Notes under the pieces: generated by a model
What the model saw: only the letters and a program-made list of their open reading frames with translations
The model's database searches: none
What the model was told of the DNA's origin: nothing
In this document: positions 43,782-47,313 of the stretch, piece by piece
Numbering within the stretch: the stretch's first letter is position 1
How the letters are laid out: the number at the start of each line of letters is the position of its first letter
Program-made: the position numbers and the translations under genes
Source of the DNA: Acidimicrobiales bacterium
GTDB lineage: Bacteria > Actinomycetota > Acidimicrobiia > Acidimicrobiales > GCA-2861595
NCBI GenBank assembly: GCA_036262515.1
Contig: DATAIT010000100.1
Span: 1 to 64,000 of the forward strand
DNA: 64,000 nucleotides
Direction: 5' to 3'

Positions 43782-45002
43782 CTACCGGCACTCCACCAGG
43801 CTGCGGGAGGTGAGCTCCGTGCACAGGGCGCTCACGCGGGAGGCGGCGCCCGACCAGGTGTAGCCGAGCGACCGGTGGGCGGCGCGCGCACCCATCTCGG
43901 ACGCCAACTGCGGGTGCAGCAGCAGCTGGGCGGCGTGGGCCGCGTAGTCGGCGGGATCGCGACCCTCGACGAGGAAGCCGGTGCGCCCGTGGTCGACGAG
44001 GGTGCGCAGGCCGCCCACGGCGGCGGCCACCACGGGGGTGCCGCAGGCGGCCGCCTCCAGCGCCACCAGGCCGAACGACTCGGATCGGCTCGGCACCAGG
44101 CAGACGTCGGCGGCCCGGTAGTACGTGGACAGCAGCTCGTGGGGGGCCGGGGGCATCATGTGGACGCGGCCGGTGAGGCCCAGCTCGGCCACGAGGCTGC
44201 GGATGCGGGCGACCTCGGCCGCGCCGTCACGGCCGCTCGGGCCACCCACCAACACGAGGAAGGCGTCGGGCACAGTCGCCACCACCTCGGCCAGCGCCCG
44301 CACGGCCACATCGAGCCCCTTGAGGGCCTGGATCCGGCCGACGAACAAGAGCATGGGACCACCGGCGGAGAGGCCGAGCGCCCGGCGGGCCTGCGGCCGG
44401 TGACCGGGCGAGAAGAACGCATGGTCCACGCCCGGCGGGACGATCTCGATGCGATGCGGGTCGGCGTCGTACAGTTCGGCGATCTGGGCCGCCTCCACGG
44501 TGCACGAGGCCAGCACGGCATCAGAACAGCCGATGACCTCCAGCTCGGCCCTGGTGCGGCGGTCGGGGTCGACGTCGCCCTCCGCCTTCACCCGGGCCAG
44601 CGTGTGGAAGGTGGACACGAGCGGGAGGCCCAGCCGGTGCTTGAGGGTGTGCCCGACCACGCCCGACAGCCAGTAGTTGGCCGAGATGGCGTCGGCCGGG
44701 TAGCCGCGCTCCATGCGGGCCAGCACGGCGTCGGTGAACTCACCGGTGAGGGCGGGGAGGTCCTCCTTCGCGACGTCGCCCAGCGGCCCGGCGGGCACGT
44801 GGTGCACGCGGAACCCCGGTTCGACCCGCACCACGGCGGCCAGATCGGGTGAGCAGGCCCGGGTGTAGACGTCGCACCCGACGCCGCTGCGGGCCAGTGC
44901 GGCGGACAGCTGGCGCACGTAGACGTTCATCCCCCCGCCGTCGCCCGAGCCGGGCTGGGCCAGCGGCGACGTGTGCATGGAGAGGACGGCGAGGCGGCGC
45001 AT
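43782..45002 (-). CDS. mshA: D-inositol-3-phosphate glycosyltransferase (mycothiol synthesis)
   Basis: This 406-residue GT4 enzyme transfers N-acetylglucosamine to inositol-3-phosphate, the first step of mycothiol synthesis. It carries the MshA start MHTSPLAQPGSGDGGGMNVY, ANYWLSGVVG and STFHTLARVK. The donor site is in VGRIQALKGLDVAVRAL, and PSRSESFGLVALEAAACGTPV closes the nucleotide pocket. Length and order are normal. With egtD in the same window, the cell probably makes both mycothiol and ergothioneine. Confidence 0.92.
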   Translation of the reverse strand: MRRLAVLSMHTSPLAQPGSGDGGGMNVYVRQLSAALARSGVGCDVYTRACSPDLAAVVRVEPGFRVHHVPAGPLGDVAKEDLPALTGEFTDAVLARMERGYPADAISANYWLSGVVGHTLKHRLGLPLVSTFHTLARVKAEGDVDPDRRTRAELEVIGCSDAVLASCTVEAAQIAELYDADPHRIEIVPPGVDHAFFSPGHRPQARRALGLSAGGPMLLFVGRIQALKGLDVAVRALAEVVATVPDAFLVLVGGPSGRDGAAEVARIRSLVAELGLTGRVHMMPPAPHELLSTYYRAADVCLVPSRSESFGLVALEAAACGTPVVAAAVGGLRTLVDHGRTGFLVEGRDPADYAAHAAQLLLHPQLASEMGARAAHRSLGYTWSGAASRVSALCTELTSRSLVECR

Positions 45003-45091: not shown

Positions 45092-45628
45092 CTACTCGAG
45101 CAGCGCGTCCACGCTCGCTTCGCCGGACTTGTAACGCCGGACGATCTCGGCCTGCAGCGCGTCCAGCCGCTCGAACACGGCGCGCCGGTCGGTCGAGACG
45201 GAGCGCTCCAGGTCGACCAGGGCGTCGGCGATGCGCCGCACCTCCTGCTCGTCGGTCTCGGGCAGCGCGCCGGCCTTGTCGACGTCGAAGATGGCGTCGA
45301 GCTCGGCGGTGAGGAGGCGGTGGTCGACGTCGGGGAGCGTGAGGCTCGGCAGGCGACCGGTCACGGTTCGGGTCCCGCCCTCGGCCAGGATCTCGCCCAG
45401 GTGGTCGACCAGCTCCGACAGCTCGCCGGTGCCGCCGGACGCCCGGTTCTCCAGCTCGGCCAGCACGATGTCGAGGCGGACCTGCACGAGGCGGCGCAGG
45501 TACGACAGCGCTCCCTCCACCTCGCTGCACTGCCTCTTCCGAGCCCGCAGGTCGGCCATGGGAAGCTGGCCCAGCGCGGCCACGTAGTCCTCGGAGAGGA
45601 TCCGGTCGAGATCGAACGGGTGGGCCAC
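45092..45628 (-). CDS. rsiG: RsiG-like c-di-GMP-binding anti-sigma factor
   Basis: This 178-residue helical protein contains the signature E-x3-S-x2-R-x3-Q-x3-D of Streptomyces RsiG exactly once (E38, S42, R45, Q49, D53). A second copy differs at one position (E141, S145, R148, F152, D156). In RsiG two such helices form an antiparallel coiled coil that binds a c-di-GMP dimer and then sequesters the sporulation sigma factor WhiG. The copies here are about 100 residues apart, with a third helical region between them, as in that fold. The start is GTG at 45628, ten bases after the sodX stop. No WhiG-like sigma gene is in the window. Confidence 0.82.
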   Translation of the reverse strand: MAHPFDLDRILSEDYVAALGQLPMADLRARKRQCSEVEGALSYLRRLVQVRLDIVLAELENRASGGTGELSELVDHLGEILAEGGTRTVTGRLPSLTLPDVDHRLLTAELDAIFDVDKAGALPETDEQEVRRIADALVDLERSVSTDRRAVFERLDALQAEIVRRYKSGEASVDALLE

Positions 45629-45637
45629 CCTGGGATG

Positions 45638-46060
45638 CTACCTGGCCGGCTCCCGGCGCAGCCGCCCGGCCCGGTCGGCCGGCCCGTACCTGTAGACGAC
45701 CCTGCCGACGACGCCGGGCACGGGGCCGAAGGCGCGACTGTCCGTGCTGGCCGAGGGATTGTCGCCGAGCACCACGTAGCCCGTGGGACCCACCGACGCC
45801 ACCCGCTTGACCAAAAGGCGTCCCGCCCGGCGCGGGTCCCGGACGACAACGAGATCACCGGTCCGCGGGCGTGGTGCACGCACGGCGAGCACGCGGTCGC
45901 CGGGGCGAAGGCCCGGCAGCATGCTCTCCCCCACCACCACCACGCGGCGCACCGCCCGGCCGCCGGCCACGAGGGCCACGACGGCGGCGGCTGTTGCGCG
46001 CAGCCACCAGCGGGTAGAAACGGGGGTCAGCGCTCGTACCCGTCGCACACGAAGGAGCAT
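45638..46060 (-). CDS. sodX: nickel superoxide dismutase maturation protease (S26 signal peptidase-like)
   Basis: This protein of up to 140 residues has one N-terminal helix (about 20-34), then the S26 motifs: GESMLPGLRPGDRVL with the catalytic serine, RPRTGDLVVVRDP, LLVKRVASVG with the catalytic lysine, and LGDNPSASTDSRAFGPV. Such proteases remove the sodN propeptide. The longest frame starts with ATG at 46060, five bases from the divergent sodN start. The true start may be GTG at 46048 or later, because the sodN promoter must lie in this stretch. Confidence 0.88.
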   Translation of the reverse strand: MLLRVRRVRALTPVSTRWWLRATAAAVVALVAGGRAVRRVVVVGESMLPGLRPGDRVLAVRAPRPRTGDLVVVRDPRRAGRLLVKRVASVGPTGYVVLGDNPSASTDSRAFGPVPGVVGRVVYRYGPADRAGRLRREPAR

Positions 46061-46065
46061 CGCCC

Positions 46066-46485
46066 ATGCCCATTGTCCTCCGCCTGCTCGAACTGGCAGA
46101 CCGCGTCCGCCCGCCGGTCACCGCGTCCGCACACTGCGACGTCCCCTGTGGCGTGTACGACCCTGCGCAGGCCCGCATCGAGGCCGACTCCGTCCAGAAG
46201 ATCATCGAGAAGTACCACGCGTCCGCCGACGAGGCGTTCAAGGCGCGCTGCCTGTTCATCAAGGAGCAGCGGGCCGACCTGGTGAAGCACCACCTCTGGG
46301 TGCTGTGGACCGACTACTTCAAGCCCGAGCACCTCGAGGCCTACCCCGACCTGCACGACCTGTTCTGGAAGGCCACCAAGGCGGCCGGCCAGGCCAAGCA
46401 GACCACCGATCCGGCCAACGCCGAGAAGCTGCTCGGCCTCATCGACGAGATCGCTGCCATCTTCTGGAAGACCAAGGGCCAGTAG
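46066..46485 (+). CDS. sodN: nickel-containing superoxide dismutase precursor
   Basis: This 139-residue precursor has a 22-residue propeptide followed by the nickel hook H23-C24-DVP-C28-GVYDP. After cleavage His1, Cys2 and Cys6 bind nickel. The usual HCDLPCG has Val for Leu. The mature protein of 117 residues is the usual size. The ATG at 46066 has AAGGAG nine bases upstream. TAGAAA at 46015-46020 is a possible -10 element lying inside the divergent sodX frame. The helical bundle sequence (DLVKHHLWVLWTDYFKPEHL) is typical. Confidence 0.95.
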   Translation: MPIVLRLLELADRVRPPVTASAHCDVPCGVYDPAQARIEADSVQKIIEKYHASADEAFKARCLFIKEQRADLVKHHLWVLWTDYFKPEHLEAYPDLHDLFWKATKAAGQAKQTTDPANAEKLLGLIDEIAAIFWKTKGQ

Positions 46486-46584
46486 GGACGACCGCGTCGG
46501 GCCGGGCGCCCGATCCCCGTGTCCGCCCCGTGGCCGCCGGGCGGAGCTAGCTTCGCCCCGACGAGCAGAACGGGGGTTGCGTCC

Positions 46585-47313
46585 ATGGAGGTCTTTTCGC
46601 GAGCGGGCGGCGAGATGCTGTCCCGCTGGGGCCACTACATGGCGGGCGTCACGTGGATCGGGCTGCTGTACTACTTCAACTTCGTGCAGGCCCCCTCGTT
46701 CGCCGAGTTCGAGGCGGCCGCCCGCACCGACGCGCTGTCGAAGCTCGTTCCCCGGGCGCTGTGGTGGTTCAAGTTCGCAGCCATGCTGACGCTGACCACC
46801 GGGATCATGATCCTCGGCTTCCAGAAGCACCTCAGCGGAGGCGCCTACTTCAAGACGGCGCCCGGCATCAGCATCTCCACCGGCATCCTGCTGGCACTCG
46901 TCATGTTCGGGAACGTGTTCAGCGTCATCCTCCCGAACCAGAAGGTCGTGATCGCCTCGGCCCAGTCGGTGGCGGCCGGCGGTGACGCCGACCCCGCCGC
47001 GCCGGCCGCCAGTCGGAAGGCGCTGCTGGCGTCTCGCACCAACGCCTTCTTCTCCATCCCGATGCTGTGGTTCATGGGCGTCACGAGCCACCTGGCCCCG
47101 GCCTATGCCGTGCATCCCAAGGGCGCCAGCCGGGGCATCTACTGGCTCGTCACCTTGGCGTTGGTCGTCGTGCTCGAGCTCAACGGCACCGGGCGCATCG
47201 GCGGCACGGCGCCCGGCGGCACCAACGCCTACCTCGACGACCACACGAAGGCGATCATCGCCGGCTTCGCGCTGTGGGCCGTGTTCGTGATCCTGTGGGA
47301 GGTGCTCTTCTAG
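46585..47313 (+). CDS. membrane protein related to urate oxidase N-terminal domain (PuuD-like)
   Basis: This 242-residue protein has about seven helices. WGHYMAGVTWIGLLYYFNFVQ at the N-terminus and the overall helix pattern resemble the Urate_ox_N (DUF989) membrane domain of the cytochrome-linked urate oxidase PuuD. The C-terminal cytochrome c domain of PuuD is missing, and no CxxCH is present. Conserved histidines (GHY, SHLAPAYAVHP) could bind haem b, though this is not shown. The ATG at 46585 is used; the frame extends upstream but is not conserved. Substrate and role are open. Confidence 0.75.
   Translation: MEVFSRAGGEMLSRWGHYMAGVTWIGLLYYFNFVQAPSFAEFEAAARTDALSKLVPRALWWFKFAAMLTLTTGIMILGFQKHLSGGAYFKTAPGISISTGILLALVMFGNVFSVILPNQKVVIASAQSVAAGGDADPAAPAASRKALLASRTNAFFSIPMLWFMGVTSHLAPAYAVHPKGASRGIYWLVTLALVVVLELNGTGRIGGTAPGGTNAYLDDHTKAIIAGFALWAVFVILWEVLF

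Follow-up and report, generated by a model that had tools for sequence, protein, structure and literature searches.

A twin-motif RsiG anti-sigma factor in Acidimicrobiales with a variable stacking residue in its second c-di-GMP motif and candidate WhiG-type pilus promoters

Results

The window, a stretch of 64,000 nucleotides from a genome of the order Acidimicrobiales, encodes a genuine twin-motif RsiG, an orthologue of the c-di-GMP-dependent anti-sigma factor of Streptomyces venezuelae. The assignment to the RsiG family and the identification of WhiG as its partner can, taken jointly, be made with high confidence. Judged from its homologs, the Phe at the guanine-stacking position of the second motif is an unexceptional and common natural swap, and the switch of Acidimicrobiales probably acts on pili and c-di-GMP enzymes, not on spores.

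Identity of the RsiG protein

The rsiG gene (45092..45628, minus strand) starts with a GTG codon and encodes a protein of 178 amino acids. The protein matches the Pfam RsiG family PF22802 in two stretches with a score of 75.1 bits (E=3.4e-21), as compared to a curated cut-off of 27 bits, and a phmmer search matched S. venezuelae RsiG (6pfj) at E=6e-15, with the two motifs aligned in register. The AlphaFold2 model, for which 80 homologs were used as input, has a pLDDT of 88 and a pTM of 0.82, and it places motif 1 and motif 2 on two long helices that span residues 24-63 and 127-168, respectively. The only fold matches in the PDB at E<=0.001 were the four S. venezuelae RsiG chains (6pfv/6pfj), with E-values from 2.7e-5 to 2.5e-4 and TM-scores of 0.66-0.77. 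Sequence and fold thus bear out the preliminary description of the product as an RsiG-like anti-sigma factor, and the intact frame and conserved motifs speak against a pseudogene. The gene has been kept vertically within the order.

Motif 1 (residues 38-53, EGALSYLRRLVQVRLD; 45470..45517, minus strand) is an exact match to E-x3-S-x2-R-x3-Q-x3-D, with residues E38, S42, R45, Q49, and D53, and it also fits the broader form E-x3-S-x2-R-x3-[QH]-x3-D. Motif 2 (residues 141-156, ERSVSTDRRAVFERLD; 45161..45208, minus strand) deviates solely at the stacking position, where the literal Gln is absent and the codon TTC (45173..45175, minus strand) encodes Phe152. The residues E141, S145, R148, and D156, which correspond to the reported ribose and guanine contacts E, S, R, and D, are all present in motif 2. 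Both motifs had been read in the same way in the preliminary description. In alignments of 66 and 80 homologs, the motif residues are nearly the sole invariant columns; S42, R45, D53, E141, S145, and R148 are invariant, while E38 and D156 are nearly so.

Gene neighborhood

The gene for the nickel superoxide dismutase (Ni-SOD) maturation protease (45638..46060, minus strand; TIGR02754, 70.5 bits, cut-off 63.25) lies directly before rsiG, in the same orientation and with a gap of 9 bp, and the two genes possibly form an operon. An mshA-like glycosyltransferase gene of mycothiol synthesis (43782..45002, minus strand) follows 89 bp downstream, also on the same strand, and has TIGR03449 as its best family at 416 bits, below the cut-off of 462.5. 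These two flanking genes are the ones that had been named beforehand. The Ni-SOD gene (46066..46485, plus strand; PF09055, 157.7 bits) is divergent from its protease. Beside it, at 46519-47313, lies a gene for a membrane protein with a urate-oxidase N-terminal-like domain, which is conserved in close relatives.

Of 71 loci in the order, 55 have mshA downstream of rsiG and 27 have the Ni-SOD protease gene upstream of it, in each case on the same strand. Seven lineages with twin-motif RsiGs outside the class to which the order belongs have a gene with MshA as its best NCBIfam match within ~5 kb downstream; these matches are just under the cut-off, as in the window, and five of the seven were checked directly. 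The two genes are hence adjacent in the order and within ~5 kb of each other in other twin-motif lineages (L337-L343, L348). The rsiG-mshA arrangement is old. Given that mshA and the Ni-SOD protease gene are conserved neighbors of rsiG within the order, and mshA outside it as well, they give no indication of a new sigma partner.

The sigma factor partner

The host genome (3.41 Mb, 129 contigs, 97.8% complete) encodes a single protein above the curated cut-off of the FliA/WhiG profile TIGR02479 (189.6 bits), namely L031 on contig C127, which scores 274 bits and whose gene is adjoined by dprA. The absence of a WhiG-family sigma factor or of diguanylate cyclases had been proposed as an argument against a c-di-GMP-dependent system, but both are encoded, the latter with 23 GGDEF profile matches alongside 12 EAL matches. 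The sequence GG[DE]EF was found in 11 of the 12 GGDEF loci inspected. The alignment of the L031 protein to S. venezuelae WhiG scores 347 bits and places its residues K43, G47, and R48 exactly on K57, G61, and R62 of the latter, which are in contact with c-di-GMP in the solved structure. A second FliA-like sigma factor, L032 (contig C98, L032:1417-2346), scores 177 bits against the same profile and has D, N, and H at these positions. The class to which it belongs is scattered through the order, with some members near flagellar genes.

Among the genomes that are at least 90% complete, 52 contain both RsiG and WhiG, five RsiG alone, none WhiG alone, and 21 neither (Fisher P~1e-14, a value inflated by the relatedness of the genomes), while the second FliA-like class shows no association with RsiG (P=0.44). 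Two of the five exceptions are G076, which contains a WhiG fragment of 161.8 bits over 129 columns, and G087, which contains a damaged RsiG. In the latter protein (L076, contig C43), most of motif 1 is missing and the Arg of motif 2 is replaced by Cys; WhiG was not detected in this genome, an apparent case of decay following the loss of the partner.

Variation at the stacking position of motif 2

The first sample comprised 71 sequences, consisting of 70 RsiG proteins from 99 genomes of the same order and the S. venezuelae protein. The stacking position of motif 1 is Gln in 60 of these, His in seven, Glu in two, and Gly in one, while that of motif 2 is His in 52, Phe in 17, and Gln in two. Another sample, which overlaps in part with the first and was collected with a 10-sequence alignment, comes from named GTDB genomes of Acidimicrobiales/Acidimicrobiaceae and related MAGs; it contains Phe in 23 of 81 proteins, Leu in three, and His in nearly all others. 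None of the remaining motif residues have been lost alongside Phe in either sample. On the tree of 70 sequences, the Phe label requires 13 changes, at least five of which are forced by strongly supported branches, and Phe, His, and Gln are all represented in the window's own family. The twin-motif RsiGs beyond the order have Gln, His, Phe, Leu, Ile, or Met at this position and retain E, S, R, and D, with Gln being found in Streptomyces-type genomes and one other family. Gln at this site does therefore not define the RsiG family across the phylum. A survey from 2021, with mostly Streptomycetaceae, Geodermatophilaceae, and Pseudonocardiaceae in its sample, described the motifs as well conserved with a Gln to His change in helix 1 as the sole exception, and the motif-2 Gln is conserved in its logo (PMC8325347). 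One residue of the published binding motif is thus not conserved in half of the site.

These patterns suggest that what the helix-5 position requires is a side chain able to pack on a guanine base rather than Gln itself, in which case Phe would be no sign of decay. It is very likely that the predicted binding of c-di-GMP is kept despite the Phe, since His and Phe have repeatedly replaced each other while the other motif residues were kept, which speaks against its loss. The stacking residue of motif 2 may have drifted freely between His, Phe, Leu, Ile, Met, and Gln, with Gln or His retained in motif 1, and the two halves of the duplicated site may therefore be functionally unequal. No clear covariation was seen between WhiG residues and the Phe or His state of RsiG. 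One genome (G083) has two RsiG genes (L019 and L077), with His in motif 2 of one and Phe in the other. The single Gly at the motif-1 position belongs to L060 (G003, contig C5), which comes from a near-complete genome without a full WhiG match.

Candidate promoters

No exact match to TAAA-N13..17-GCCGATAA was identified in the host genome. With a spacer of 15 and one mismatch, the search of the 99 genomes gave 169 sites versus 144 control sites in the WhiG genomes, which is no excess, and with two mismatches, the host genome had 13 versus 15. Two conserved sites of the latter kind, one before clpC and the other before a small zinc-ribbon gene that precedes queuosine genes, were dropped as weak.

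A pattern with a spacer of 16, TMAA-N16-GCCGATAM, was modeled on the pilus cluster in four of the 99 genomes, the sites of which are thus not independent, and counted in all 99 genomes with the reversed pattern as a control. The promoters of this type have one or two differences from TAAA/GCCGATAA. In total, 147 sites were found versus 40 for the control. The counts were 73 versus 15 in genomes with WhiG and without the second FliA-like sigma factor, 38 versus 5 in those with both, and 23 versus 5 in those with the second class alone, while genomes with neither showed no excess (13 versus 15). The excess is thus limited to genomes with a sigma factor of the WhiG/FliA type. Many sites in the other genomes lack a plausible target or fall inside coding frames. 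In G076 (contig C89, from about 1161; L445), the frame that follows a promoter-like match resembles a translated CRISPR-type repeat array with a recurring GHFFYPSSIPR, and this match is therefore probably not a promoter.

Contig C25 of the host genome carries a type IV pilus cluster with pilB, pilT, pilC, pilA, a prepilin peptidase gene, and minor pilin genes. One candidate promoter, TCAA-N16-GCCGATAC, is located between the prepilin peptidase gene and a minor pilin gene (C25:8465), and another, TCAA-N16-GGCGATAA, 229 bp before pilA (C25:5011). The single exact TMAA-N16-GCCGATAM site of the host genome is the one before the minor-pilin operon, and a corresponding site occupies this location in both the sister species (G001) and G003. 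The pilA site has a counterpart 226 bp before pilA in G017 and a weaker one at 231 bp in G001.

Among the relatives, sites with the 16-spacer precede pilin genes (G035, G069), a Flp pilin gene (G015), flhA (G047, G049, G091), and flbD (G091). They also precede genes for c-di-GMP turnover domains, namely EAL (G047, G091), PAS-GGDEF-EAL (G004, G005), GAF-EAL (G005), and PAS-GGDEF (G019), a gene of the HD-GYP type (G004), and response regulator genes. When only the first match per genome was used and the pattern-shaping genomes were left out, four of 26 targets were related to pili or c-di-GMP as compared to a rough background of 1.7% (P~0.001). A second set of loci was partly picked near pilus or flagellar genes or for TAAA and is not unbiased. 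PilT and RsiG co-occur (P=2.5e-4). The host genome has no fliF, which makes the pili the likely target there. The PilB protein of the cluster (L387:353-2053, contig C25) has an MshEN domain, a domain that binds c-di-GMP in MshE, and the pilus may therefore be under c-di-GMP control at two levels.

Discussion

We infer from these comparisons that the window RsiG binds c-di-GMP, that it binds WhiG, and that the TMAA-N16-GCCGATAM promoters are read by WhiG. At high c-di-GMP, the two long antiparallel helices of RsiG would hold a c-di-GMP dimer, with E and S contacting the ribose, R and D contacting the guanines, and Q49 and F152 packing on the guanine bases; several different residues occupy this stacking position in natural RsiGs, F152 among them. 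The armed RsiG would bind the organism's own WhiG (contig C127) and prevent its association with RNA polymerase. A drop in c-di-GMP would release WhiG for transcription from the 16-spacer promoters, which in the host would include the minor-pilin operon and probably pilA, and in relatives also flagellar genes and genes for c-di-GMP synthesis and breakdown. We consider this explanation as a whole, from the arming of RsiG to the transcription of pilus genes, to be reasonably likely.

The RsiG-WhiG pair could be real while L032 reads the pilus promoters and the function of WhiG in this organism lies elsewhere, as might be suggested by the 177 bits of L032 to the FliA/WhiG profile, by the promoter excess in genomes with the second class alone (23 versus 5), and by a site upstream of one second-class sigma gene in G006. 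Yet the excess is strongest with WhiG and without the second class (73 versus 15), WhiG-only genomes (G004, G035, G049, G069, G091) have pilin, EAL, GGDEF-EAL, and FlhA targets, and PilT co-occurs with RsiG. We thus regard this division of labor as unlikely, and control of the host pilus by WhiG rather than L032 as moderately favored. The oxidative stress and mycothiol neighbors of rsiG had led the preliminary description to expect a different sigma factor as the target, and there are 12 sigma-70 matches besides WhiG in the host genome and no sigma gene adjoining rsiG. However, the distribution of RsiG across genomes matches that of WhiG rather than that of the second FliA-like sigma factor, the residues that contact c-di-GMP are conserved in WhiG and replaced by D, N, and H in L032, and the mshA neighborhood is ancient, so this expectation is corrected and such a target is very improbable.

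Equally improbable is a decaying or c-di-GMP-blind state of RsiG, signaled by Phe152, in which WhiG is bound constitutively or never. Although Phe falls outside the published range of Gln and His (PMC8325347), it has originated repeatedly with all remaining motif residues kept, and His and Leu are likewise used at this position. Moreover, WhiG is retained in 15 of the 17 Phe-bearing genomes, and those 15 hold 28 promoter sites versus one for the control. Co-transcription with the Ni-SOD protease gene and mshA could also tie the level of RsiG to oxidative stress, in line with the same-strand gaps of 9 bp and 89 bp and the conserved gene order. But the link is one of co-localization, no redox-sensitive residues were recognized in RsiG, and many rsiG loci have no SOD protease gene, all of which leaves such redox wiring rather improbable.

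The presence of RsiG in Acidimicrobiales is already known, with homologs counted in three of four species in 2021; these come from the same order and are of the same protein type, and neither Phe or Leu in helix 5 nor a regulon was reported for them (PMC8325347). In the literature searched, with most subscription journals outside its reach, we found no description of the variability of the helix-5 stacking position, of the conserved rsiG-mshA neighborhood, or of the 16-spacer promoters of the order with their pilus and c-di-GMP targets, and nothing that links RsiG with mycothiol or type IV pili with c-di-GMP in Acidimicrobiia. RsiG-WhiG has been described as the sole known pair of sigma and anti-sigma factors that is gated by c-di-GMP (PMC8325347). 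The sites presented here are concrete candidate promoters through which this switch may govern pili in an abundant and mostly uncultured order, and whether its original job concerned pili or spores is therefore a directly testable question.

Like S. venezuelae RsiG (PDB 6pfj/6pfv), the window protein is a single chain of the same length class with two motifs on two antiparallel coiled-coil helices and a connecting loop, and the host genome likewise has a WhiG with the K/G/R contacts. It differs in its Phe for Gln in motif 2, in an identity of ~30%, and in the lack of a sporulation context, the predicted output being type IV pili rather than spores. In its predicted regulon it resembles the RsiG of Rubrobacter radiotolerans (PDB 7lq2-7lq4), an organism in which WhiG promoters precede pil and dgc/pde genes (PMC8325347). 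Flagellar-type promoters are predicted before the pilus genes of the host and before the GGDEF/EAL genes of its relatives. However, while the RsiG of Rubrobacter has one motif and forms a homodimer, the window RsiG is of the twin-motif type.
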